Below, piece by piece: positions 3,149 through 27,717 of a stretch of 29,995 nt of DNA (its first letter is position 1; every line of letters begins with the position of its first letter). The notes beneath the pieces are model-generated. The model saw only the letters and a program-made list of their open reading frames with translations. It did not search any database and was not told the DNA's origin. The DNA is from a virus. Position numbers and translations under genes: made by a program. Location: the IMG/VR virus record IMGVR_UViG_3300010354_000027, positions 1 to 29,995 of that record; one strand, written 5' to 3'.

Positions 3149-3186
3149 GCCGTCTCCTTTGTAATGGTTGGCTACGTCCAATGTTT

Positions 3187-3219
3187 GTAGCCGCTACGTA
3201 GCCGCTACGTAGCCGATAC
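3187..3219. repeat. Origin-like iterons, cluster upstream of the initiator gene
   Basis: Three tandem 11-bp units occupy 3187-3197, 3198-3208 and 3209-3219: gtagccgctac twice and gtagccgatac once. Each unit is close to a palindrome (GTAGC/GCTAC), as expected for a protein-binding site. The array sits between a terminator-like hairpin and the initiator start, so it may be part of the origin, an autoregulatory operator, or both. Confidence 0.65.
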
Positions 3220-3222
3220 AAA

Positions 3223-3249
3223 GCCGGCCCGAGCATACCCCGGGCCGGC
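3223..3249 (-). terminator. Terminator-like hairpin after the 106-aa gene
   Basis: A perfect 9-bp GC-rich stem (gccggcccg / cgggccggc) with a 9-base loop lies 13 bases past the stop of the 106-aa gene. On the minus strand it is followed by TTTGTAT, a weak U-tract. It may terminate or attenuate transcription into the initiator gene. Confidence 0.5.
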
Positions 3250-3262
3250 CCGTTTGGCTACC

Positions 3263-3583
3263 CTAGAAAGGGTATGAGGTTACGTCCTCGGCCTTTGGCA
3301 TGGCCGACGGTTGGCCGGCAAAGCCTCCCCGGTAAGGGTTGCCGGATTCGGCCCCTTGGTTCGGGTTATATGGCTCCGAAAGGCTAAGGGTATGAGTAGG
3401 ATGCCGATCCGTTGCCCTTTCCCCGGCCGGCCAAATCTCAAGGCTAACGTCCTCGGGGAGGCCCTTAGCCCGAGCCTCGGCAATCATGGCCTCCAACTTG
3501 GTAAGGCTAATCTTTGCCGACAAGATGATCCGGCCGTCTCGGAGGCTTCGGGCCCAAAGCCCGGTTATCTTTTGCTTGGCCAT
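3263..3583 (-). CDS. Small 106-aa protein with SSB-like C-terminal tail
   Basis: Function not certain. The start is ATG 3583, with CAAAGGAGACAAAC directly upstream. Residues 1-72 are a compact beta-rich segment (ITGLWARSLRDGRIILSAKI, then a helix LTKLEAMIAEARAKG and DVSLEIWPAGE), consistent with a small OB-like or beta-barrel fold. Residues about 73-95 are a Gly/Asn/Pro-rich linker. The tail ends in acidic then aromatic residues, EDVTSYPF, resembling the D/E-rich ...PF tip by which bacterial single-stranded-DNA-binding proteins recruit partners. It lies directly after the putative annealing protein and before the initiator, a usual place for a phage SSB. I infer SSB-like, but the fold is unproven. 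Confidence 0.75.
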   Translation of the reverse strand: MAKQKITGLWARSLRDGRIILSAKISLTKLEAMIAEARAKGLPEDVSLEIWPAGERATDRHPTHTLSLSEPYNPNQGAESGNPYRGGFAGQPSAMPKAEDVTSYPF

Positions 3584-3626
3584 GTTTGTCTCCTTTGCTA
3601 TGTCCGGCTTGCTTGCCGGTTGGTAT

Positions 3627-3655
3627 ACGGTAGCGTCAACCATCCTATGAGGCAA
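3627..3655 (-). promoter_or_regulatory. Possible promoter with leader hairpin before the 106-aa gene
   Basis: By alignment with the two stronger promoters near 26.5 and 26.0 kb, the minus strand reads TTGCCT (-35), 17 bases, TACCGT (-10), then TATACC. A CCGGCaagcaaGCCGG hairpin and AAAGGAG follow, as in the other two. The -10 is poor, so the call is weak; the shared leader is clearer than the promoter. Confidence 0.4.
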
Positions 3656-9738: not shown

Positions 9739-12335
9739 GAGGCATAATCCATGAGGGTATACGTTGCCTCCCGGCTATCGGCTTTCCCCCCGTCGGCAAT
9801 GCCCCATACGAACAGGAGCCGGGGGGAGCCATCCCCTAGTGTAACGGCAACGGTATCCCCGAGATCAACCCTTGGATCCAATACGGCTCGGACACTATAC
9901 CTAGCCGAGCCTCGGATCAACTCATCCATGTATAGTTCGGCCATGTCTCGGGCTTCGTCTCCGTTTATGCCCGAAAGGGTTATGACCTTGGTTCTATGCC
10001 TTTGGTTGGTATAAACGGAGCTATAGTTTGCAAGGATACGCTTGGCAACGTCCGAGGCAATAAACCTATAGCTTGAGTTGGCAACTTGGATCCTTTGCCA
10101 CCAAACGGAGCCAGTATTGCCCCCGACGGCAACCGAAGACCAACCCGTAGGAGGGCTACCGGTTGTGTCATCCGTCAACTTGGCAGCCCAACCACCCAAG
10201 GTTGACGTTATTACCTCAATCTCCGTTAGGCTAGGCACAACGGCTACCCCGGTTGAATCGTCGGAGTAAAAGGTCAAGGTCAATACGAAATAGTATTGAT
10301 TATCAACCCAACTCCCAACTCCAAGGCTCCTTATTGCCTCCAACAAAAGATCTTGGCCTATTACGTTTTCAGAACCCGGATCTATCCCTATATAGTGAGG
10401 GCTTCCTATCATTACGGGTTGAAAGGTTGATCCGGTTGATCGTGCTATTGCGAACAATTGAGCGGTAAAGTATCCAACCGTGCCATGTATTTTGATAGCG
10501 TCAATATAGGGCACAAGATCAACCGGGTTTATGTCAAAGGTAAAGGTAACGGTTGATCCGTTGGTGCAAGTTGCGGCATTATTCCTGCTTCCGTCAAACA
10601 ATCTCTCCGGATTAGTCCAACCCGAGGAGGTTGCCGGCTTAAGCAAGGAGGCAATGTTTCTAGGCTCTTGTTTGGCTATCACAACGCATGACGTGTAGGG
10701 GCTATCCTCGGCCGTTATCTCGGCATCGGATATATTGCCTAAAACTAGGTCCGGAGCATCCTTTTGATAATACGATCCAAGGCCGATCTTGCCGTCGGGC
10801 CTATCGTGTAGGAAGGCATTGCCCGGGAGGCCTTGCTCGGACAAACGGCTAAGGAGAGTATCAAGATCCTCCCCTACGGCCCGAACCTCCGTAAAGAATC
10901 CCCCGGTTGGATTGCCGGCTACAAAATCGGCCGACGGTATTACGTTGGAGACAAGGTTAGCAAAGGCAGCCTCAATCTTGGCCGTGTTGGTATATCCGGA
11001 TCCGAGAGTCTCATCAAAGTAATAAAGGGGGAAGGATGCCGAGGAGGGGTAAACTCCTTCGGCCGTTGTATAGTGCCTCCCTTGTACCGGAATGATTCGG
11101 CCTATAGACGGCCTAACCTCAAAGGAGGATCTCCTATATTCCCCGACGGCACCAACGGCCGAATAAAGCCTAACCGGGGGCCCTACGGCCGAGATCCAAC
11201 GAGCATTACCATAGGGAAAAGCCCGCTTTGTCTCGGCCGTAGTAACCCGTATGGGATCCCCCTCGGCCGGGGCTGCCGAAAACGCAACCGAAAGGGTAAT
11301 AACCCCGGAGGCATTGGTTGAACCAATGGCCCTATATTCTTCGGTGCCGTCGGCCTTTGTCCAAGCTAGATAGTCCGTACTATAGGGAGCCGCCTGTGCT
11401 ACCAAGGCACGTCCGGACTCATAGGCCCTTGGATCTTGAACGATAATAACGGAAGCCGTGCAACCCGAGGAGGCATAGGTTTGGAAAGTATCCAAGACGG
11501 ATCGGCTAGGGGCCGCTCTGAAATTGTCTCCCGATACAAAGGTAGGAACAACGATCCAACGGCTTGTAACGGATGAGCTAAACGGAACGGCCCAAAATTG
11601 AGGCTCAATCCAACGAATATAGATTGTAGCTGCCGGGGCTACGGGCCCGGGAAAGGTAAGGCTAAGGGGTAGGCCGTCCGTTGCCGTTACCGTATAGTCC
11701 GTGCCAAATATATAGGAGGTTGCAAACGTAGCCGAGGAGCTAACGATAATGCTCCCGGCTACGGTTGCATCTAAGCTATGGAAAGCCCCGGGTATGCTGC
11801 CGGACCAACCAACGGCCCCGGTTGTAGCAACGGCCGAGGCTTTCCATTGGCAATAGCCGGTAAGGCTTGAGGCCGTCGAAAATTGAGTTACCGGGCTTTG
11901 AAAGGCAAGGTTTTGGATCTGATAGCCCTTGGCCCTTTGCAAGTTGCCGTAGGCTTTCACGGAGAGAGTTTGGACAATGGCCCCCTGTTGGATTGACTCG
12001 GCCTCCTCAATCTCCGTTATTGGCCCCGTAAAGTATGGCCATAGGTTGCCGTCCGAATCCGCTAGATCAATCTCCAAGTTGTAGAAGGTAAGGGGATCCG
12101 TAAACTCGGGGAGGGCATCGGCCAATATCTCAACGGACAACTCCCATGTCGGGTTATCAAAGGATGCCGTCCGGCTTCGGTTGACGATTGCATTGGACGG
12201 CAACTCCCAATACGTCCAAGCCGTCCGGCTTGTAATGTTGCCGTTTGTAGCAGCAATCCGGGCCGTCCATTGCAAGTTAAACGGGTTTACGATCCCCGAC
12301 GGTAGGACGGCCCCATATCTGCTAGTGCCAATCAT
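9735..12335 (-). CDS. Tail-tip/baseplate hub protein (Tal-like)
   Basis: Large structural protein of 866 residues following the tape measure gene, probably the tail hub. Its N-terminal part (FNLQWTARIAATNG, TWELSVEILADALPEF, YFTGPITEIEEAESIQQGA) and its last 100 residues (MAELYMDELIRGSARYSVRA, then LGDTVAVTLGDGSPRLLFVW) look like the two halves of a hub of the gpD/gp27 kind split around an insert. The middle contains a possible discoidin-like beta module (TSSGWTNPERLFDGSRNNAA, then TFTFDINPVDLVPYIDAIKI), a fold that often binds sugars. No peptidase or lysozyme motif is visible. Start and stop both overlap neighbours by ATGA. The usual order of hub and Dit-like gene appears reversed here, so the labels are provisional. 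Confidence 0.65.
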   Translation of the reverse strand: MIGTSRYGAVLPSGIVNPFNLQWTARIAATNGNITSRTAWTYWELPSNAIVNRSRTASFDNPTWELSVEILADALPEFTDPLTFYNLEIDLADSDGNLWPYFTGPITEIEEAESIQQGAIVQTLSVKAYGNLQRAKGYQIQNLAFQSPVTQFSTASSLTGYCQWKASAVATTGAVGWSGSIPGAFHSLDATVAGSIIVSSSATFATSYIFGTDYTVTATDGLPLSLTFPGPVAPAATIYIRWIEPQFWAVPFSSSVTSRWIVVPTFVSGDNFRAAPSRSVLDTFQTYASSGCTASVIIVQDPRAYESGRALVAQAAPYSTDYLAWTKADGTEEYRAIGSTNASGVITLSVAFSAAPAEGDPIRVTTAETKRAFPYGNARWISAVGPPVRLYSAVGAVGEYRRSSFEVRPSIGRIIPVQGRHYTTAEGVYPSSASFPLYYFDETLGSGYTNTAKIEAAFANLVSNVIPSADFVAGNPTGGFFTEVRAVGEDLDTLLSRLSEQGLPGNAFLHDRPDGKIGLGSYYQKDAPDLVLGNISDAEITAEDSPYTSCVVIAKQEPRNIASLLKPATSSGWTNPERLFDGSRNNAATCTNGSTVTFTFDINPVDLVPYIDAIKIHGTVGYFTAQLFAIARSTGSTFQPVMIGSPHYIGIDPGSENVIGQDLLLEAIRSLGVGSWVDNQYYFVLTLTFYSDDSTGVAVVPSLTEIEVITSTLGGWAAKLTDDTTGSPPTGWSSVAVGGNTGSVWWQRIQVANSSYRFIASDVAKRILANYSSVYTNQRHRTKVITLSGINGDEARDMAELYMDELIRGSARYSVRAVLDPRVDLGDTVAVTLGDGSPRLLFVWGIADGGKADSREATYTLMDYAS

Positions 12336-14831: not shown

Positions 14832-15349
14832 TTACCTACCCCTTACCCTAGCCTCGGCTCGGCTTGCTGCCCTAGCCTGCTCGGCCTCCATTGCCCGGAC
14901 TCTCCAAAGGCCATACCACATGGTTAACTCGGAGGAGGTTATCCTTTCGGCAAGATCCTCGGCCGAGGCTCCAAGTTTCTCGGCCAACTCATACAAACCC
15001 CTTAAGTCTCCGTCTCGGTAAAATTTTCGGCTGCCTCCTTTACGGCCCCTTGCTTGAGGCCATTAACCTCCAAGGCCTTCTCAATCAAGGCAGCAATCAA
15101 CCCGTCGGCCCCGTCAACTTCCGAGGGGGATGCCCAAAGGGGAGCCTCCTCATCCGGCAGCAAAACGCAACGGGCCAAAACTTGCAAGGCCCAATCATCC
15201 TTGAGATTGCCCTCGGCATCCATGGCTTCTTTACGCCATGTAAGCCTTTCCCGGACGGTAAGCTCACGGATCCTAACCGTTACCCCATTGGGAAGGGTAA
15301 ACGGCTTGGCCTCAACCGTTAAGGCCTTGAGGATATCTTCCCTAGCCAT
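14832..15349 (-). CDS. Tail assembly chaperone GT fusion, made by -1 frameshifting
   Basis: The long form of the tail chaperone, which with the short form coats the tape measure protein during tail assembly. It shares residues 1-110 with the short product, shifts -1 at A_AAT_TTT, and then reads 62 further codons to a TAA at 14832-14834, one base before the tape measure ATG. The extension begins YRDGDLRGLYELAEKLGASA and contains ERITSSELTMWYGLWRV, which matches the 'rI.s.Elt.W..y.r' signature of T-type extensions. The extension has no start of its own: an ATG in the zero frame after the G stop reaches a stop after 17 codons. Total length 172 residues. Ribosomal efficiency cannot be read from sequence. 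Confidence 0.85.
15002..15349 (-). CDS. Tail assembly chaperone, short form (G-like)
   Basis: A 115-residue protein with AREDILKALTVEAKPFTLPN and VRIRELTVRERLTWRKEAMD, typical of siphovirus tail chaperones between tail tube and tape measure genes. The rest is helical (GLIAALIEKALEVNGLKQGA). The start ATG overlaps the TAA of the tail tube gene (TAATG). Near its 3' end the heptamer A_AAT_TTT allows a share of ribosomes to make the GT fusion. The two products are expected in unequal amounts, with the short one in excess, as known for lambda G and GT. Confidence 0.87.
   Translation of the reverse strand: MAREDILKALTVEAKPFTLPNGVTVRIRELTVRERLTWRKEAMDAEGNLKDDWALQVLARCVLLPDEEAPLWASPSEVDGADGLIAALIEKALEVNGLKQGAVKEAAENFTETET
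15020..15026 (-). promoter_or_regulatory. Programmed -1 ribosomal frameshift site
   Basis: The minus strand reads A_AAT_TTT in the zero frame at codons 109-110 of the chaperone gene, a perfect X_XXY_YYZ slippery heptamer. After the slip, Asn and Phe tRNAs re-pair on AAA and TTT. The zero-frame stop follows six codons later. I did not identify a downstream pseudoknot. Confidence 0.88.
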
Positions 15350-15777
15350 TAATAGGCTCCCGAGGTAAGCCGGGAAACGTCTCCGGAGATCTGAAGGGTA
15401 GCCGTAAAGCTAACAACCCCATCAAAGGCAGCCGAGGACTCATAAGCCGTAACAATGCAAGTTGCCGAGTAACCCGGGGCCGTTGCCGAAAAGGTTGCCG
15501 TGCCGGTAGGGTTCAACTTGATAACCGGTTGGGTTGCCGGGTTGTTGTAGGCCGTATACAGGACGTTATCAATATTGGTAGCAGCCGTACCATCCCAACG
15601 GCCCTGAAGGCTCATAGTGCCTCCCTTAAGGCCCTCAATAAAGTCTCGGGAGCCATCTTGGAACGTTGTAGTTTCAAGGGCATCCTTTGTAAGGTTCTGG
15701 CTCACGTTGGTAAGGAAGGTACCTACCTCCGTGCTATCAATCTTGACCTTGTAACCCTTACCTGCCGTAAAAGCCAT
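15349..15777 (-). CDS. Major tail tube protein (paralog 1)
   Basis: A 142-residue protein, probably forming the rings of the tail tube. It begins MAFTAGKGYKVKIDSTEVG, and its core LTKDALETTTFQDGSRDFIE at about residues 29-48 followed by GLKGGTMSLQGRWD is typical of lambda gpV-like tail tube proteins. The upstream gene at 15792-16523 carries almost the same core (LTKDALETTTFQDGSRDYIE), so the two are paralogs. This one is the size of a bare tube domain. It lies immediately before the chaperone gene, sharing TAATG with it, the canonical position of the major tail protein. Confidence 0.85.
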   Translation of the reverse strand: MAFTAGKGYKVKIDSTEVGTFLTNVSQNLTKDALETTTFQDGSRDFIEGLKGGTMSLQGRWDGTAATNIDNVLYTAYNNPATQPVIKLNPTGTATFSATAPGYSATCIVTAYESSAAFDGVVSFTATLQISGDVSRLTSGAY

Positions 15778-15791
15778 GGTTTGGTCCCTCC

Positions 15792-16523
15792 TTAGAACCG
15801 AGCAAAGTTTACATGGGCCGTTGTGCTAGTGCCGATTGCACTAATACGGCCTCGGACGTACCGGCCGATGCTTACCCCCGACGCAATAAAGGTACGGCTT
15901 GAGGTTGCTGCCGATACCGTAAACGTTACATGCGGAGTCCATGAAACGTTATCGGGACTCGACTCAACAATGATCGTTGTATTGGTGCCGGTATGGGCCG
16001 TTGCATGGATAGTTGCAACCCCCCCGGCCGTTGTACCGGTAACGTTATCGGCAGCCGTAAAGGTTTGGATCCCCGTGTAGGCAGCATAGGGCACCATGCT
16101 TAGGGCCCGTTGCCAAGATCCGGGCCGGCCGGCCGTACCATCCGAGGAGGCTTGGATACTTGCCCCGACGGTAACCAAACCATCAAAGGCAGCCCCTAGC
16201 TCATAGCTCCCTTGCCAACCGTCCGTAACGTAGCCCGGGGTTGTAACGGCATCATTCCCGAGGAAGATACTAACCGCCTCCGTAGCCGTATCCGAAAACA
16301 CGGCATTAAGGATAACGTCCGAGGCCGAGGCAGCCGGATCGAAAAGCCCGCTAAGGGTAGCCGTGCCGTTCTTTAGGCCCTCAATATAATCCCGGCTACC
16401 ATCCTGAAAGGTTGTGGTTTCTAGGGCATCCTTGGTTAGGGAAAAGCTAGCGTTTTGGAGGTATGGCCCGAGGTTATAAACCCCGACAAGGATCCGGGCC
16501 CCTTTGCCTGCTACAAAGGCCAT
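15792..16523 (-). CDS. Second tail tube paralog with C-terminal surface domain
   Basis: A 243-residue protein whose first roughly 140 residues parallel the tail tube protein encoded next (MAFVAGKGARILVGVYNLG, LTKDALETTTFQDGSRDYIE, then GLKNGTATLSGLFD). The extra 100 residues form a separate beta-rich domain: TTIIVESSPDNVSWTPHVTF, then GRYVRGRISAIGTSTTAHVN. That domain resembles the 128-aa protein at 18302-18688 (LQGSMDNATWAELPHS, PPYLRVVAEATG). It may be a minor tube subunit displaying a surface domain or a specialised ring at one end. The ATG overlaps the TAA of the upstream gene. Which paralog builds the bulk of the tube is not decided by sequence. Confidence 0.75.
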   Translation of the reverse strand: MAFVAGKGARILVGVYNLGPYLQNASFSLTKDALETTTFQDGSRDYIEGLKNGTATLSGLFDPAASASDVILNAVFSDTATEAVSIFLGNDAVTTPGYVTDGWQGSYELGAAFDGLVTVGASIQASSDGTAGRPGSWQRALSMVPYAAYTGIQTFTAADNVTGTTAGGVATIHATAHTGTNTTIIVESSPDNVSWTPHVTFTVSAATSSRTFIASGVSIGRYVRGRISAIGTSTTAHVNFARF

Positions 16524-20353: not shown

Positions 20354-21940
20354 TTAGGCCAAGACGGCCCGTAGCATATCGGCTAGGGCTTTGATATTGG
20401 CCTCGGGCATTGCCTCGGCCTCGGGGGGGTATGGGGATGGTTCAACCGGCACGGGCTCCTCCCCGGGTACCTGTGCAAGGAGTTGATCAACGGCCTCAAC
20501 CAAGGCCATGGCATGCTCCCGGATTGCCCGGACAATGCCCTCATTCTGCCGGTTAAGAACCCGGCCGGCCTTGCTGCCGTCCATTGGCTCCGTTGGCTCC
20601 TCGGGCTCGGCCGGCTCGGACATGTCTCCCTTGCCCTCGGCCTCGGCCCGAGCCTTTGCTACCAACTCTCTCAACCGTTCAAGGAGGGCCATTACCTCGG
20701 GCCGATCGGCCTCGGGAATATCAACCCCTCCCCGTGCCCCCCCGAGGGCAGCAGCAGCAGCAGCAAGGCCCGAGGCTACAAGGGTTAGCTCCCCGTCCTT
20801 GATATCGGCAAAGCCCAACTTGTAGCCGGTAAACTCCTCGGCCATGTCGGCATCATGCCAAAGGAAGGCCCGAGCATACTTGGCCCAATCAATCATGGCC
20901 TTGTCTCCCGAGCCGTCCGAGGATGCCCAAGTCCGTACCCGTGCCTCGGCTGCCGAACCATCCCAAGCCGAATCAAGATCAACCGGAAGATCCTCAAACT
21001 TGCCGGCAACCTTGGTTACGGTTGCAACCCCGGACCTACGGACAAGCATGGCCTCGGGGTTAGCCGGAATGGGCACTAGGGAAACCTCCAACAACTCGGC
21101 CCGCCTATGAATGAGGGCTCCGTCGGACCGTTCCCTTTCAAGGCTTCGGAAGCCAACCGAAACGGACCTAAGCATACCCTCAAGGATTAAGTTACGGGCA
21201 TGTCGGCCCTTATCGCAAGAGGAAAGGATAACGTCCAACTCCCAACCCGATGCAACCCTACGGATCGGGGGTAACCCTCGGCCGAGGATATCCATGATGC
21301 TTTCGGCCTCATGGCAATCCAAAATAACCGGGTTTGCCTCAAAGGATCGAAAATCCCAACCATCGGGATCGACAATCTCTCCTTGCCTATCCAAAGCCCC
21401 GGTTGTGATAGTAAACGTAAAAACCTCGGGGCCCGGCATATCTTCGGACTGGGCATACCCCTCGGAATCCTTGCCGAGGATAGCAGCCTTAAGGATGCCG
21501 GCTAACTCGGCCTCCGTTGCCGGCCTATGGGCAACATAGGAGGCTTGGACGTAACGCATGGATCTCCGTTCCCTAGCCTTGGCTTTGGCCTCGGCTATAA
21601 GCTTTCTCATATAGTCCAACCCCCGGGAGCCGATAGCAAGCCATTTTACCTGTGCTATAACCCCGGCCAAACGGAAATCTTCCCTATGCCGAGCAACCCA
21701 AGCCTCCCGAAGCCGGACGGCCTCCTCCTCCGTAGGGGTTTCGGGGGCCCTCCTATCCCGAGCCATTGGGGCAAGCCGGTTATATTGCTTGTTACCTAGG
21801 ACGTTGCCCCCGGCATCCCATAGCTCCGGGTAATTTTGCTTGATATCCGCGGCCTCCGAGACGGGGAAAAGGGGCCATTGGCTAGATTGTAGGGAGACGG
21901 GCTTATCTTCCCCGGCCTTTGGGAAGTTGGTTACCGGCAT
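20354..21940 (-). CDS. Prohead protease with N-terminal and C-terminal extensions
   Basis: Cleaves capsid precursors during head maturation. The 528-residue protein is longer than a minimal protease. Residues 1-130 form a separate helical domain (PVSEAADIKQNYPELWDAGG, WLAIGSRGLDYMRKLIAEAK). Residues about 165-305 are the HK97-type serine protease, with likely catalytic His210 in ILDCHEAESIMD and Ser261 in RSVSVGFRSLER, plus LLEVSLVPIPANPEAML. Residues 315-420 include LDSAWDGSAAEARVR, WAKYARAFLWHDADMAEEFT and AALGGARGGVDIP, a second domain often fused to this type of protease. The last 100 residues are acidic and Pro-rich, then helical, possibly scaffold-like. TAATG overlap with the portal gene. 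Confidence 0.88.
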   Translation of the reverse strand: MPVTNFPKAGEDKPVSLQSSQWPLFPVSEAADIKQNYPELWDAGGNVLGNKQYNRLAPMARDRRAPETPTEEEAVRLREAWVARHREDFRLAGVIAQVKWLAIGSRGLDYMRKLIAEAKAKARERRSMRYVQASYVAHRPATEAELAGILKAAILGKDSEGYAQSEDMPGPEVFTFTITTGALDRQGEIVDPDGWDFRSFEANPVILDCHEAESIMDILGRGLPPIRRVASGWELDVILSSCDKGRHARNLILEGMLRSVSVGFRSLERERSDGALIHRRAELLEVSLVPIPANPEAMLVRRSGVATVTKVAGKFEDLPVDLDSAWDGSAAEARVRTWASSDGSGDKAMIDWAKYARAFLWHDADMAEEFTGYKLGFADIKDGELTLVASGLAAAAAALGGARGGVDIPEADRPEVMALLERLRELVAKARAEAEGKGDMSEPAEPEEPTEPMDGSKAGRVLNRQNEGIVRAIREHAMALVEAVDQLLAQVPGEEPVPVEPSPYPPEAEAMPEANIKALADMLRAVLA

Positions 21941-24155
21941 TAGAAACCCTCCTCCTCGGCAGCCTCGGACTCAACCCCGGCCAAGTCTCCCTCCCTATCC
22001 CCGGCAGCCGAGCCAAGGACGGCAATAACGGTACACCTACAATTGATATCCTCGGCAGCAACCCCGAAGGATCCCGGGGTTGGCCCCGTAGCCCCGGACG
22101 GACTAACAAACGGCTCCCCGACGGGCACGGTTTGACCGTGCATGGCCTCATGGGTTTCCCGGACCCTATCGTCAAGGGTTGAAAGCCATGCCTTTTCGGC
22201 AACGATCCCGGATTGCCTAAAAGCCTCCTCGGCCCCCCCGTTATAAGCCCCGATAACCTCCGTCCTTGCAACCGTCTCGGCCCGTCTCGGGTTTGCCCCT
22301 ATCTCCGTTTGGACTCGGCCGGCAAGGGCTAGCATATCTTCCCCGGCCTCCATGCCGGCCTTGAGGCTACGCTTGAGGCCTTCCCATCTTGTCTCGGCAA
22401 TCTGCCGGGCAAACCGTTGGGCCCTTGCCGAAAGGAAAGCCATAGCATCGGGGGCCGTAATATCAAAACGGATACCGGCCCCGAGCCGACGCATGTTAAC
22501 TTGCCCCCCCATACGGTAGGCCTCCCGGATGGTAGGAGACATGGCCTCCTCGGCTTGCCCTTGCCAATAATCAAGGTCAAACGGATCCTCCGGATCAATA
22601 TCCCCGATTGCATCCCCCTCGGCCTTGGCCTTGGCCCCCATACGTCGGAGGAGATCTTCCGTTAGGGCCTCGGACCAATCAAGGTAAAGCCGGGCCATGT
22701 CGGCCTCATACGGCCGGGTAAGTCTATCCCGGCTCCTCATCTCGGCTTTATGCCGGGTACTAGCAAAGGCCGGTACCCGGCTAGGCACAAAAGGGGAAAC
22801 GTCCGGCCCCTCGGCATTGGCCTTTGTAACGGCCTTGGAGGCCGTTGGCTCCTCGGCCGGGGCCTCGGGGCTTGCCGGGCTCGGCCCCGGGCTTACCGGG
22901 CCGGCTAGGCCGGCTAGGGCAAGTTGGATCGGAGTATCCCCCCATGCGTAACCCGTGCCCCCGTCCGGAAGCAACTCGGGCCTATAGACTTGGAGCAACT
23001 TGTTAAGGGGTACCCCGAGGGCAGCAAGCTTTTGGAGTTGGTCCGTAACCTCCGTTTGATCCTCTTGTAGGGCTTGAACCCCGGAGGTATCAAACTCAAC
23101 CGTTAGATCCGAGCCAAACATGGGGGCAAGTTGCTCGGTTAGCTCCGAGGCAAGCATGGCCAACTCGGGCAAGATTGCATCCGTCCAAAGGGCCTTGTTT
23201 GCTTGCTCGGCATTGCTATAGGTTGCCCGGGAGAAGTCTTGAACCTTGGACGGGGGGATCTGGTATACCCGGCATATATCGTTCAAGGTCCAACCCATGA
23301 GGCCTAGAAACTCGGCATCCTTCGGGCTCATGGTTGGGGTTTGGAGGTTGACTTGATGAGAGAAAACCATAACCCTATGCCGACGATCCGAGCCGGCTAG
23401 GCGTCGGGTAAGTTGGGCCTCCAGTAACTCTCTCTCCTCCCGGGTAAAGGCCGTTTGGTTATCCGATGGGCTAAGGATACCCCCGGGGCTCATGCCGTTT
23501 TTGAAAATGGCCCCGTTGCTTTTCATAGCGTCAACCGAAGCCTCAACCGAAACCCTAGCAGCAGCAAGGGGGGAAAGGCCCCTAAACTCATCGGCCGGGT
23601 TCGGGTACCTAAACCAAATAACCTCCCCGGGGCCGAAGGCTAGCTCACGGTTGCCGTCCTTATAAATAAAGCCCTTGATATACCCCTCCGGATCGGGGAT
23701 CGGCTTCATTTTGTCGGACCTTGCATACCAAATCTCCTTAGGGGCTTGCCGTCCGTTGGCTCCCCTTTCCAAAACCCAAAAGGCCTCCCCCCATGTGCAA
23801 GGGCTGCCTCCGTCATGTACCAAAGCCGGGCCGGGGTCCAATGGGGGTTAACGTATTGGAGCAACTCGGCTAGGGGTCCGTCGGTTACCGGCTCCTTGAG
23901 GCCGTCCGAGCCTTTCCTATAAACCCGAAGGGGCACGGAGGCTATGGTTTGGCTACGGAGCCGGATGCAAGCATAAACCCCTACGGACAACTCGGCCCAA
24001 TTCTCGGGGGGGATTGCATACGGATCCCCTTCTCCATAGCCGTAGCCCATAGGGGTTAGGATGCCCCCCCCTTGGCCGACAACGGCCGGGCCCAACTTAA
24101 AGGCCTTGCTTACCAAGCCCCGAAGCCGAGCCCCGAGGGTTAGGGTATTGGCCAT
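21940..24155 (-). CDS. Portal protein fused to a MuF-like domain, with a -1 frame change
   Basis: The portal forms the ring through which DNA enters and leaves the head. The start is ATG 24155 with GGGAGG upstream. The first 123 residues (WAELSVGVYACIRLRSQTIA, then LQYVNPHWTPARLWYMTEAA) end at HGG in a G6 run; the rest is one frame back. Joined by a -1 shift, the sequence reads HGG-EAFWVLERGANG, exactly the portal consensus, giving 738 residues. Portal signatures continue with EIWYARSDK, VIWFRYPNPADEFRGLSPLA and IPPSKVQDFSRATYSNAEQA. The last 150 residues form a MuF-like minor head domain (ETVARTEVIGAYNGGAEEAF, VRETHEAMHGQ, DINCRC). Without a shift the N-terminal frame ends at 23706. A sequencing error, mutation or programmed slip are all possible. 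Confidence 0.85.
23787..23792 (-). other. G6 homopolymer frame-change point in the portal gene
   Basis: The minus strand reads CAT GGG GGG AGG in the N-terminal frame; the portal continues in the -1 frame as GAG GCC TTT TGG. One extra G would restore a single reading frame. A glycyl-tRNA on the second GGG can slip back one base and still pair perfectly. Confidence 0.85.
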
Positions 24156-24211
24156 GTTGCCTCCCATAGGAAAGACGGGGGCAAGTCAACCCGGCCCCCG
24201 TCCAAGCCTAC

Positions 24212-24229
24212 CCTAAGCCTAGGCTTAGG
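24212..24229. repeat. 18-bp perfect palindrome after the methyltransferase gene
   Basis: CCTAAGCCTAGGCTTAGG is a perfect palindrome overlapping the methyltransferase stop codon at 24225-24227. It could form a hairpin in the mRNA between the accessory segment and the portal gene, or be a binding site for a dimeric protein. Confidence 0.6.
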
Positions 24230-25496
24230 CAAAGAGCCCGAGTTGGCTACCCCCTCCCGGGATATAAACCTCCGGCATAATCCCCGAGGCCTCGGCAGCC
24301 TTGGCAACGGCCCATGCAAGCCGGCCCCTAATGATCGGGATATATTCCGGGGTTATCTCGGCCCCGACAAATCGAAAGCCCTCAAGGAGGGCAGCCTTGC
24401 CGGTTGAACCCGAGCCGGTAAACGGATCCAATATCAACCCGTTAGGGGGGGTTATGAGCCGGCAGCAATAACGCATGAGGTTTGTCGGCTTTACCGTAGG
24501 ATGCCAGTTAGCCCGAGCAACCGGCTCCCATTGGCCCTCGGGGCTATCAACCATCCCCCCCGGGTTTTTCCTTTGCAATAGGCCTAGGGGCAACTCACCT
24601 AGGCCCTCCTCCCGATCCTCGGGGCTAGCCTTCGGGCAATAGAAAAACCGGCCGACGGATCCGAGGCTATCAACCGGCAGCAAGGCCTCAACCTCGGGGC
24701 CCCCGTCATGTATGAAGTTTGCCGGCCAACGGCCCCGGCCCTCGGGCTTGGCTGCCCGTTTATCCCCTACGTCGTTGGACGTACAAAAGCCAACCGTGCC
24801 GGGATTGATTCGGCTTTCCCGGGTTGTCCAAACGGCATCATTAATAGGATCGTTAGGGTCAACCGGGATGCTAGTGCCGTTTATGTTTATGGCCCCCGTG
24901 CCGTGCCTAAGGACGTTATCGGCAAGGGTACCCTCCAAGGGTTTACGGGCTAGGATAATCGGCTCCCATGCCGGCTTGAGGGCCGTTCCCCAACCCTCCC
25001 ATTGCTCGGCCTCGGGGGTTGCATGGGCCGTAACCCTAACCCCGTTCCAATGTCCATTGAGGGCATTGGTAGCCTCCGGTAGCCCGGCTTGCCGGCCCTT
25101 GGCTCCGGGCATTGGCCCTAGGTCAATCGGGCCGTTTGCCAACTTTCGATCCATGGCCTTGCTAAGGTTTTGGCTCTTTGGAAACCCCGAGCCGTAAACC
25201 CATGAAAGGCAATCTCGGACTTGCCAACCGGCATCTTCTATTGCAACGGCTAGCCTATGAAAAGTACGGGTTGCACCAAAGGCCATGAGCCATGCCCCCG
25301 GCTTGGCAACCCGTAGGGCCTCGGCCCATACCCTTTGATCGTAGGCAATCCCCGAGGCATCCCATGCTCGGCCTAGAAACCCAATCTCATACGGGGGATC
25401 GGTTACCACGGCATCTATGGAGTTAGCCGGGAGGCCTTGCATAACCTCCCGGCAATCCCCGAGCCGTACCTCCCATTGGCCCTCGGCAGCCCTCAT
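24225..25496 (-). CDS. DNA methyltransferase, N4-cytosine/N6-adenine, beta class
   Basis: Methylates the exocyclic amino group of adenine or cytosine in DNA. In the 423-residue product the catalytic DPPY is at residues 33-36 (VVTDPPYEIGFLGRAWD) and the S-adenosylmethionine site FTGSGSTG at about 359-366 is near the C-terminus. That motif order (IV before I) marks the beta class of N4/N6 methyltransferases. VRDCLSWVYGSGFPKSQNLS and ANWHPTVKPTNLMRYCCRLI are typical flanking segments. The central part (about 120-320) is long and should hold target recognition. No matching restriction endonuclease gene is present, so it is an orphan, most likely for self-protection. The ATG overlaps the stop of the RHH gene (ATGA). 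Confidence 0.93.
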   Translation of the reverse strand: MRAAEGQWEVRLGDCREVMQGLPANSIDAVVTDPPYEIGFLGRAWDASGIAYDQRVWAEALRVAKPGAWLMAFGATRTFHRLAVAIEDAGWQVRDCLSWVYGSGFPKSQNLSKAMDRKLANGPIDLGPMPGAKGRQAGLPEATNALNGHWNGVRVTAHATPEAEQWEGWGTALKPAWEPIILARKPLEGTLADNVLRHGTGAININGTSIPVDPNDPINDAVWTTRESRINPGTVGFCTSNDVGDKRAAKPEGRGRWPANFIHDGGPEVEALLPVDSLGSVGRFFYCPKASPEDREEGLGELPLGLLQRKNPGGMVDSPEGQWEPVARANWHPTVKPTNLMRYCCRLITPPNGLILDPFTGSGSTGKAALLEGFRFVGAEITPEYIPIIRGRLAWAVAKAAEASGIMPEVYIPGGGSQLGLFA

Positions 25497-25669
25497 GCCT
25501 TGGCTGCCTCGGCATAAACAAGCATGGCAACAAGATCCCCGATTGGTAGGCCTCGGGCCGAGGCCAACTCCCGGAGGAGCCCGGCTGCCTCCTCGGGCAT
25601 CCGGATGCCAACTTGGACCTGCCCGGGCCGGCTAGGCCGGCCCCCCTTTGACTTGGTATTGCTTTCCAT
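25493..25669 (-). CDS. Ribbon-helix-helix DNA-binding protein candidate
   Basis: A 58-residue protein. The start is ATG 25669, with AAAGGAGATCAAGCA upstream; the open frame to 25795 passes through this site and is rejected. After a basic N-terminus (KSKGGRPSRPG) comes QVQVGIRMPEEAAGLLRELA and a second helix IGDLVAMLVYAEAAK, the strand-helix-helix plan of Arc/MetJ-type repressors, where alternate residues of the strand contact DNA. It overlaps the methyltransferase start (ATGA), so it probably regulates that gene or other genes of the same unit. Exact target unknown. Confidence 0.75.
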   Translation of the reverse strand: MESNTKSKGGRPSRPGQVQVGIRMPEEAAGLLRELASARGLPIGDLVAMLVYAEAAKA

Positions 25670-25686: not shown

Positions 25687-25920
25687 TTACTTGGCTTCGG
25701 GCTTGGAATAGCAAACGGCCAACAAGCCGGCAAAGCTCATAAAAAACCCCCCTTGGCTTGCCACATGGGCCTCCAAGGCCTCCATTGCTTGGCAAAGGCC
25801 TTTGTACACCTTAAGGGCCTCGGCATTGCCAAGATCCTCATTGAGGCCCGAATCCTTAAAAGACTCCATGGCCTTTCGGATATCTTGGGCCAACCGTGCC
25901 ATGTTGGTTGCTTGCGTCAT
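25687..25920 (-). CDS. Unknown 77-aa helical protein
   Basis: Function not recognised. The start is ATG 25920, with ACACAAAGGAGACGAAC directly upstream, one of the best ribosome binding sites here. The product is helical (MARLAQDIRKAMESFKDSGL, then LKVYKGLCQAMEALEAHVAS) and ends with a moderately hydrophobic stretch, GGFFMSFAGLLAVCY, that might touch a membrane. It is the first gene after a promoter with consensus-like -35 and -10 boxes, and is followed after 17 bases by the RHH gene, so it begins the unit that ends with the methyltransferase. It could be an anti-defence or host-takeover protein, but nothing shows this. Confidence 0.75.
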   Translation of the reverse strand: MTQATNMARLAQDIRKAMESFKDSGLNEDLGNAEALKVYKGLCQAMEALEAHVASQGGFFMSFAGLLAVCYSKPEAK

Positions 25921-25964
25921 GTTCGTCTCCTTTGTGTTAGTCCGGCTTGATTGCCGTTAGGTAT

Positions 25965-25992
25965 ATCCTAGCAGTTTGCCGGGGGCCGTCAA
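25965..25992 (-). promoter_or_regulatory. Promoter of the 77-aa / RHH / methyltransferase unit
   Basis: The minus strand reads TTGACG (-35), 16 bases ending in TGC, then TAGGAT (-10), an extended -10 sigma-70-type promoter. Downstream a CGGCaatcaaGCCG hairpin precedes ACACAAAGGAGACGAAC. The same design occurs at 26496-26523. It lies just after a terminator, so it would restart transcription. Confidence 0.7.
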
Positions 25993-26004
25993 TAGGGGTA
26001 ATGC

Positions 26005-26034
26005 AAAAGTTTGGCCCCGGGTTTCCCCGGGGCC
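26005..26034 (-). terminator. Intrinsic terminator after the 134-aa gene
   Basis: On the minus strand a perfect 9-bp stem, GGCCCCGGG / CCCGGGGCC with a GAAA tetraloop, starts nine bases after the stop and is followed by AAACTTTTG. Strong stem, stable loop and a short T-run make this the best terminator in the window. Confidence 0.75.
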
Positions 26035-26043
26035 CCTTTGCTC

Positions 26044-26448
26044 CTACTCCGTAACCTCAACCAACCGAAGGTTGTTATTCCAAGTTGCCTCAACCCGGAA
26101 GATCCGGCCGTCCATACGGATCCGGCCCCCAATCTCTGCCTTGATTGCCGGCTTCCGGATTCCTTGATTCCGGCCACCTGTAAGGATTGCCGGCATCGGG
26201 TTGGCCCAATACATTGCCTCCCCCCGAGCAACGGCCCGGGCCATACGCTCATCGGCCGTCTCATAGGGGCTCGGGTTAGCAGCAATGGAGTTAGCAACGC
26301 TGCCGGTTTCGAAAGCCTGCCAATACGTCTCCCCGGCCTTGGTCGTCCGAAGGATTGCAATCTTGTTACCTACGGCAACCTCGGGCTCCGAGCCAATATC
26401 AAAGACCGCAATGTTCGCCTGCTTGGCAACGAGGGTAATGCTTTCCAT
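26044..26448 (-). CDS. Unknown 134-aa protein in a promoter-terminator cassette
   Basis: Function not recognised. The start is ATG 26448, with ACACAAAGGAGACGAAC upstream; the frame open to 26523 contains this leader and the -10 region, so it is rejected. The product has beta-rich ends (ITLVAKQANIAVFDIGSEPE, then IAILRTTKAGETYWQAFETG, and GGRIRMDGRIFRVEATWNNN) around a helical middle (ETADERMARAVARGEAMYWA). No cysteines, membrane spans or catalytic motif are visible. It has its own promoter and its own terminator and sits between terminase and the portal, the pattern of a phage moron, so a role in host takeover, anti-defence or superinfection control is plausible but unproven. Confidence 0.8.
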   Translation of the reverse strand: MESITLVAKQANIAVFDIGSEPEVAVGNKIAILRTTKAGETYWQAFETGSVANSIAANPSPYETADERMARAVARGEAMYWANPMPAILTGGRNQGIRKPAIKAEIGGRIRMDGRIFRVEATWNNNLRLVEVTE

Positions 26449-26495
26449 GTTCGTCTCCTTTGTGTTGGTCCGGCTTGCTTGCTGCCGGTATATAT

Positions 26496-26523
26496 ATCCT
26501 AGCATAATCCTAGGCCTTGGCAA
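26496..26523 (-). promoter_or_regulatory. Promoter of the 134-aa gene
   Basis: The minus strand reads TTGCCA (-35), 16 bases ending in TGC, then TAGGAT (-10) followed by ATATATACC. A CCGGCagcaagcaaGCCGG hairpin and ACACAAAGGAGACGAAC come next. It matches the promoter at 25965-25992 in box sequence, spacing and leader. Confidence 0.72.
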
Positions 26524-26556
26524 GGGGTTTTCAGAAAATAGTTTTACGGATTGCTC

Positions 26557-27717
26557 CTAGGTCCAAGCAATAACCCGGCCGGCCCCGGCATAAGCATAGG
26601 CCATGGCATCAATCCAATCGTCATGCTCCCCGAGGGGGAAGGCCAACAACTCCCGGGTAAACTCCTCGGGCAAGCCGGGGTCAAGGTAAACCAAGCCCTG
26701 CTCCATTCGGGCCTCCAAGGGTTGGAAACGGGTAACCTTATCCCGATCCGGCCGTACCCCTCGGATCGGTAGGTCCGTTGTCCGTAGCAACTCGGATACA
26801 ACGGCTGCCTGATATTGGACGGTTTCTATTGCTATGCCTTCCGGCCGATGCTTGCCGGCCATGTCTCGGATAAACCTCAATACCCCGTCAAACGGAAGCC
26901 GAGCCCGGGAGGCGTCAAGGATATAGATCCGTCCGTCGGCAGCCTTGCCCATTACAACGGCTGCCGTATAGTCTGCTCCGTCCTTGGTGCTAATAGCAAG
27001 GTCAACCCCCATAGTTACGGTTAGCCGTTCCCCCTCGGGGGGCCGTCCAACCCGTAACCATTCCCGACGTACCCGAGCCCCGGCAGCCGATACAAACTCG
27101 GCCCCAAACTCCTGTCTAAACACGATGCTAGGCAAGTTGGACCTAGCCTCCGCTATCTCCTCGGGGTCAAGGTACGGGTTAGTCCAACTTGGCAACCTCC
27201 AAGCCCTCCAACCCGGGGTACCCTTCTCGGCCCGTAGGTAAGCCTCATGGAACCAATCCCCCTCACCGTTGGGGGTTGATATGAAAAGGCCCCGGCCCTT
27301 CCGATCCGACAAGGCCGGCCGGATTTGTTTTTGCCAAACGTCTCCCGGTACAAACGCTGCCTCGTCCAATATTGCTAGGTCCAAGCCCTCCCCCCGGAGG
27401 CTGCCGTGCCCAACGTCGGCAGACTTGAACCATAGCTCCCCTCCCCCGGGAAAGGAGATCATACGATCGGACTTGCTTACCTCCGAGCCGGGTATAGCCG
27501 AGGCCAACGGCACGGCTAGCCGATAGCCGATCATGCTTACCGGGTACGTCGGGGCTAGCCACCATGCCCGGCCCCCCTTGAGGGCCGTAGCAATGGCCTC
27601 AACGGCAGCTAACCGGGTTTTGCCCCAACGTCGGCCACAAACCAAAACCCTCCAACGGCTCGGATCGGCCACAACCTCCCGTTGGACTTCATGCAAGCCC
27701 GGGAGCCGGATCTTCAT
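26557..27717 (-). CDS. Terminase large subunit
   Basis: Motor and nuclease that packages DNA into the prohead. The 386-residue product has an adenine-side N-terminus, Walker A GRRWGKT at 28-34, Walker B LAILDE at 114-119, coupling motif ISTPN at 146-150, and the RNase H-like nuclease with Asp239 (GVDLAISTKDG), Glu298 (IAIETV) and Asp370 (DDWIDAM). All ATPase and nuclease residues are present. It is short for the family but complete. The start, ATG 27717, overlaps the small subunit's stop (ATGA); the longer frame to 27882 is antiparallel in sense to no motif and overlaps the small subunit entirely. The end lies just before the promoter of the 134-aa gene. Confidence 0.95.
   Translation of the reverse strand: MKIRLPGLHEVQREVVADPSRWRVLVCGRRWGKTRLAAVEAIATALKGGRAWWLAPTYPVSMIGYRLAVPLASAIPGSEVSKSDRMISFPGGGELWFKSADVGHGSLRGEGLDLAILDEAAFVPGDVWQKQIRPALSDRKGRGLFISTPNGEGDWFHEAYLRAEKGTPGWRAWRLPSWTNPYLDPEEIAEARSNLPSIVFRQEFGAEFVSAAGARVRREWLRVGRPPEGERLTVTMGVDLAISTKDGADYTAAVVMGKAADGRIYILDASRARLPFDGVLRFIRDMAGKHRPEGIAIETVQYQAAVVSELLRTTDLPIRGVRPDRDKVTRFQPLEARMEQGLVYLDPGLPEEFTRELLAFPLGEHDDWIDAMAYAYAGAGRVIAWT

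Follow-up and report, generated by a model that had tools for sequence, protein, structure and literature searches.

Promoter-tagged small-gene cassettes between TerL and portal in an IMG/VR phage record: a probable exchangeable accessory or counter-defense slot

Morons of the HK97/HK022 type are accessory genes that carry their own promoter and terminator, and com-mom of phage Mu is an anti-restriction module. In cluster K mycobacteriophages, a start-associated Shine-Dalgarno (SD) box (SAS/ESAS), sometimes accompanied by an upstream inverted repeat and a SigA-like promoter, lies before the starts of intergenic non-structural genes, and that inverted repeat is conserved in sequence and lends no support to pairing at the RNA level (PMC3203893, PMC11373665). 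Conserved regulatory sequences are reported to mark anti-defense genes in archaeal viruses (PMC11065993), and the P2/P4 antiviral hotspots are phage loci at which defense-related cargo is rapidly exchanged between conserved genes (PMC9122126). Here, we compare with these systems the slot between the terminase large subunit (TerL) and portal genes of IMGVR_UViG_3300010354_000027. The window, that is, the whole stretch of DNA analysed (29,995 nt), is the entire IMG/VR virus record and has a direct terminal repeat of 123 nt, and all of its accepted genes lie on the (-) strand. From TerL to portal, the slot comprises a first unit (promoter P1, a 134-aa gene, and a terminator-like hairpin) and a second unit (promoter P2, a 77-aa gene, a 58-aa ribbon-helix-helix (RHH)-like gene, and an N6/N4 DNA methyltransferase gene), with the following features:

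26557..27717, (-): TerL, upstream border of the slot (phrog_2, E 3e-42; Pfam Terminase_6C/6N)
26487..26531, (-): promoter P1 (AAAACCCCTTGCCAAGGCCTAGGATTATGCTAGGATATATATACC); -35 at 26523-26518 and -10 at 26501-26496, TTGCCA-16-TAGGAT with an extended -10 (TG)
26470..26488, (-): putative 5' leader hairpin of the P1 unit, CCGGC-AGCAAGCAA-GCCGG, -7.5 kcal/mol; its 3' arm ends 21 nt before the ATG, and it is expected near +1
26449..26469, (-): unstructured leader with the SD site (ACCAACACAAAGGAGACGAAC) of the 134-aa gene, AAAGGAG box
26044..26448, (-): 134-aa gene, without known relatives
26003..26041, (-): terminator-like hairpin, -30.8 kcal/mol, z -5.45; like the terminators of relatives L215, L300, and L295 in place and type
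25960..26001, (-): promoter P2; -35 at 25992-25987 and -10 at 25970-25965, TTGACG-16-TAGGAT with TG
25943..25956, (-): putative 5' leader hairpin of the P2 unit, CGGC-AATCAA-GCCG
25921..25941, (-): unstructured leader with the SD site of the 77-aa gene, near-identical to the leader of the 134-aa gene
25687..25920, (-): 77-aa gene, predicted helical hairpin (AlphaFold2 single-sequence pLDDT 78)
25493..25669, (-): 58-aa RHH-like gene (RHH_1 weak, E 0.02, below the cut-off)
24225..25496, (-): N6/N4 DNA methyltransferase (PF01555, E 6e-26; phrog_67, E 7e-69), overlapping the RHH-like gene by 4 nt
24174..24202, (-): hairpin between methyltransferase and portal, -21.3 kcal/mol, 18 nt before the portal start
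21940..24155, (-): portal protein, downstream border of the slot (PF04860 in both pieces; frame broken near 23,793)

An earlier note on this DNA had described two independent units standing out among mostly coupled genes. Indeed, neighbors in the structural module mostly overlap by 1-4 nt or sit within ~17 nt of each other, which makes the gaps of 108 nt upstream of the 134-aa gene and 123 nt upstream of the 77-aa gene conspicuous; by hand count these are the largest gaps of that module, in a ranking that leaves out two stretches near 9.3 kb and 6.8 kb as start-choice artefacts of our script. As for the strong terminator that had been placed after the 134-aa gene, it consists of a 9-bp GC stem with a GAAA loop and short A/T-rich closing arms, and none of 200 shuffles was as stable; its U-run is short (CTTTTG), which is why the hairpin was missing from an automated terminator scan. 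The second unit, which closes with the hairpin ahead of portal, has a spacing of only 17 nt between the 77-aa and RHH-like genes, followed by the 4-nt overlap, and is therefore a short operon, which corrects the earlier description.

The portal gene is itself split into 23706-24155 and 21940-23841 by a frame change at a six-G run near 23,793, and the portal genes of relatives are intact; the break may be an assembly error, a broken gene, or frameshifting. In the tail region, two adjacent paralogous genes (15349-15777 and 15792-16523) are 44% identical. Directly before portal, many distant relatives (L028, L032-L034, L037, L039-L052, L057, L068, and L072-L081) have a 70-nt structured RNA with a two-part stem, compensatory changes in 12 of 15 pairs, and a conserved loop GGUGYGUUY. 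Its model gave strong matches at the TerL-portal junction only (779 kb searched), and no Rfam family matched; it is possibly a new cis-acting RNA. In the window itself the match was not convincing (E 0.52), and the portal leader can be no more than a remnant of it.

P1 and P2 have TGCTAGGATAT in common, of which no third copy occurs anywhere in the record, and in a scan with a generic sigma70 matrix they took ranks 3 and 5 among 59,918 positions. A second matrix was made from 13 promoters of other phages' TerL-portal inserts, with the window not in the training set. With this matrix, P1 ranked first and P2 second among 59,886 window positions, with the 13-nt block spacing kept, it being understood that the block limits were picked after the window had been seen. 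These ranks under an independent matrix, which uphold the matched promoters claimed earlier, are sequence evidence that each unit has a promoter of its own. Moreover, none of 2000 shuffles aligned as well as P1 of the window does with P1 of L215, and the P1/P2 resemblance is, judged from these sequences, not due to chance.

The 13 promoters of the relatives all lie at the TerL-portal junction, each ahead of a different small gene, and share AAACCCCTTG[AC].. plus CTG[CTA]TA...T, with little variation in the distance between the two; the window was already known when this consensus pattern was written. In a pattern search of nine relatives' loci, the motif was confined to the inserts, where it follows TerL by 15-27 nt and recurs ahead of the later cassettes; a narrower earlier pattern, run against all viral contigs, had matched only the L215 contig and one near-identical contig. 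In other phages, the promoter itself is a conserved mark of the slot, and this is the strongest evidence obtained. Elsewhere in the window, the fourth-best match to the matrix (at 3635) belongs to a further element:

3581..3643, (-): degenerate extra copy, comprising the promoter -35 block and the same leader hairpin, before a 106-aa early gene at 3583 (leader match)

In the same part of the record, tandem 11-nt CTACGTAGCCG-like repeats at 2769-2815 and 3169-3226 surround a replication-initiation-like gene and are possibly iterons.

The 37-nt leaders of the two units are 95% identical, and the predicted transcripts should start a few bases from the short hairpin and continue through ACYAACACAAAGGAGACGAAC to the ATG. 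The AAAGGAG box is further found at the early genes 6006, 5156, 4583, 3583, 3148, 2327, and 1325; it stands before seven of the 13 early or non-structural genes but before no structural gene (0 of 20; Fisher p 0.0004). Eight of nine leaders tested carry a hairpin, which ends 17-22 nt upstream of the start; its stems differ by gene yet pair (CCGGC/GCCGG, CCCC/GGGG, GGCTAC/GTAGCC, and GGCCCTA/TAGGGCC). The window therefore resembles the SAS/ESAS arrangement in having an SD box before the starts of non-structural genes, but differs from it in that (i) its stems keep pairing and not sequence, so that the leaders are not inverted repeats of conserved sequence lacking compensatory pairing, and (ii) its promoter family sits in a TerL-portal hotspot. 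A leader-only DNA pattern hit 20 scattered viral contigs, and a BLAST of the window proteins against these loci gave weak matches in only a few.

Of the 133 loci found by TerL and measured, 117 have a TerL-portal gap of less than 200 nt, a count in which some loci overlap or nearly duplicate others, whereas the gap in the window is 2402 nt; the window units thus lie between two genes that adjoin in related phages. In the nearest relatives, whose TerL is 64-67% identical, the gap is about 40-100 nt, and homologs of the 134-aa, 77-aa, and RHH-like genes were not found there. Comparison with relatives, as the earlier note had proposed, showed the 134-aa and 77-aa genes to be absent from every relative examined, and they are hence not conserved structural genes. 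Like morons, the units place small genes where relatives have two adjoining genes, and each brings a predicted promoter and ends in a terminator-like hairpin; unlike morons, the slot uses one conserved promoter family for unrelated cargo in several phages, repeated within a single insert, and its cargo is rich in DNA modification. Together, the promoter family and the mostly empty junction support moron-like, independent units.

TerL of the relatives with the promoter family is about 57% identical to that of the window, and the cassette-bearing loci are few, with about eight distinct inserts. Among them, L215 (TerL 57% identical) has a promoter, a 71-aa gene, a terminator, a second near-identical promoter, a 93-aa gene, a hairpin terminator, a 58-aa RHH-like gene, and Mom (PF25680, E 2e-33; phrog_1384, E 1e-45), with the same 4-nt overlap between RHH and enzyme. 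It mirrors the layout of the window almost piece by piece, Mom replacing the methyltransferase. Across the L215 subclade (TerL 83-100% identical to that of L215), the junction is hypervariable: the insert measures 0, 0.5, 0.9, 1.2, 1.65, 2.0, or 2.2 kb, and its other contents are 59aa-RHH, 94aa-RHH-DNA methylase, 61aa-89aa-RHH, 75aa-Mom-C5 methylase, 112aa, several small genes, or nothing. The flanks are 84-94% identical, and homology ends at the promoter/leader and restarts at RHH or portal. The first ORF of the insert is small (59-94 aa) and follows the same promoter in L215, L291, L292, L295, L297, L299, and L300, and the order of small gene(s) and then RHH, which the window has behind P2, recurs in L215, L291, L292, and L295, the RHH call being weak. 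A 94-aa family (phrog_9437) recurs behind the same promoter in inserts of L299, L300, L301, and L292 and is a good first protein to test. Among distant marine loci, L053 carries at its TerL-portal junction a 138-aa gene (10273-10689) with a perfect TTGACA-16-TATAAT promoter, and L054, 97-98% identical to it in most shared blocks, lacks this gene, a clean presence/absence pair that would be an independent instance of the same insertion event.

With regard to cargo, the window slot encodes a DNA-modification enzyme, the PF01555 methyltransferase. Its homolog in L006 (52% identical) lies directly after TerL with a 4-nt overlap, and those in L022, L213, and L215 lie directly before TerL. Relatives' inserts encode Mom (in L215 and L297), a C5 methylase (E 7e-57), and a phrog_757 DNA methylase (E 1e-70). 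The presence of Mom in the same slot recalls the com-mom module, from which the window differs in having an N6/N4 methyltransferase and an RHH-like regulator, with no Com homolog recognized. For the RHH-like protein, a search of 1,167 ORFs returned the RHH genes of L215, L291, L292, and L295 as the top four matches (E 0.003-0.018), and the reverse search placed the window protein first (E 0.012), making it the reciprocal best match of all four; an HMM built from these four near-identical sequences did not find it significantly (rank 2, E 0.11). Homology between the window RHH and those of the relatives is thus moderately supported.

The 134-aa protein had no significant match in Pfam, PHROG, NCBIfam, or PADLOC, nor among viral contigs, phages, plasmids, 400 genomes from the phylum to which the Chloroflexota MAG belongs, and the records of 11 relatives, one empty answer among these being of little weight; its AlphaFold model (pLDDT 38.8) was discarded. 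For the 77-aa protein, no homologs were found in the phage records and relatives searched, and Foldseek gave no match at E<=0.001 to its predicted structure and no informative neighbor. Neither protein resembles the small genes of L215, PADLOC returned nothing for the small proteins, and no known Acr or Aca was found. The slot shares with the archaeal viruses and with acr-aca loci a strong promoter that marks diverse small genes, and the RHH-like protein would be a candidate for the co-encoded small DNA-binding regulator; it differs in belonging to a tailed phage with sigma70-type promoters and DNA-modification enzymes. The 134-aa gene has an ordinary GC content and 9.9 GCG/CGC per kb against 3.6 overall, although on four occurrences only. 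Across the window, GCG and CGC are extremely avoided (45 and 64 copies against 1266 of GGC), an avoidance that relatives do not share and that is not due to codon choice alone, since it is present in all reading frames; TCGA is likewise scarce, with 16 copies where 96 would be expected.

We consider it probable that the TerL-portal junction is an exchangeable accessory or counter-defense slot, filled by promoter-tagged cassettes of one conserved promoter family; it looks so because relatives swap DNA-modifying and small genes behind the same promoter at the same spot. One could instead regard P1 and P2 as the structural operon's usual late or portal promoters, with the inserted genes expressed late, for example for methylation before packaging. 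Mom of phage Mu is a late gene, and four cassette-less relatives (L018, L021, L022, and L024) have a TAGGAT/TAGACT box between TerL and portal with GTGACG 18 nt upstream. However, the boxes scored in three of them fail the promoter-family matrix (2.2 in L021, 2.2 in L022, and -17 in L018, against 25.7 and 15.7 for P1 and P2), the empty L296/L213 junction has no such promoter, and the P1/P2 leaders match those of early and not of structural genes in the window, all of which makes this reading unlikely. An ancestral junction promoter, rejected because the TAGGAT-like boxes tested fail the family matrix and the empty L296 junction lacks one, survives only as part of this alternative.

The remaining alternatives concern the cargo, and we regard both as improbable. 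RHH proteins are common antitoxins, and the 77-aa gene sits just upstream of the RHH-like gene, as it would in a pair of the toxin-antitoxin or plasmid-maintenance type that has the methyltransferase as a passenger; yet RHH is retained in L291 and L295 next to quite different small genes and so has no fixed partner, and searches that included Pfam, PHROG, and PADLOC matched no known toxin family. If, on the other hand, functional cargo were limited to RHH and methyltransferase, the 134-aa and 77-aa genes would be small regulatory or chance ORFs, with which their lack of detected homologs and the low AlphaFold confidence for the former are consistent. Against this, each gene lies behind a strong promoter matching that of the other, a hairpin leader, and a perfect SD site, and most relatives' inserts likewise open with a 59-94 aa ORF behind the same promoter.

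For an exchangeable accessory or counter-defense slot, we propose the following mechanism. The slot would separate the transcription unit of the packaging genes from that of the portal/head operon, and each cassette would comprise a host-type extended -10 promoter, a short 5'-hairpin leader with a strong ribosome site, a single small gene or a few, and a terminator. The RHH-like protein is probably the second unit's own repressor, and the methyltransferase, translated together with it, would mark phage DNA against host restriction. Because homology breaks at the promoter/leader and restarts at RHH or portal, the repeated promoter/leader modules may act as recombination joints by which cassettes come and go. 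The 134-aa and 77-aa proteins have no relatives, so that it is their position that suggests a role, most likely in counter-defense or host takeover, and they would be made by host RNA polymerase without late regulation. That they are good counter-defense candidates, as had been suggested, agrees with the DNA-modification and small unknown genes with which relatives fill the slot. Overall, the observation in the earlier note was confirmed and its interpretation partly supported. Like the P2/P4 hotspots, the slot appears to hold exchanged defense-related cargo between conserved genes; it differs in its location and in that its cargo looks counter-restriction rather than host-protecting.

More tentatively, and as a possibility that we would currently not favor, the promoter/leader and terminator units could be the dedicated joints of a cassette-exchange platform at the TerL-portal junction, through which single-gene counter-defense cassettes are traded and remain controlled by a single promoter family and by repressors of the RHH type, and from which new anti-defense proteins, including the 134-aa and 77-aa proteins, could be found by promoter alone. 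If this is true, one short promoter motif would serve in uncultivated phages as bait for candidate counter-defense genes, most of which encode uncharacterized small proteins, and would show how such phages trade single genes without disturbing their virion genes. The 134-aa and 77-aa proteins would then be testable candidates, predicted to act from the start of infection against restriction or related defenses, or on the host.
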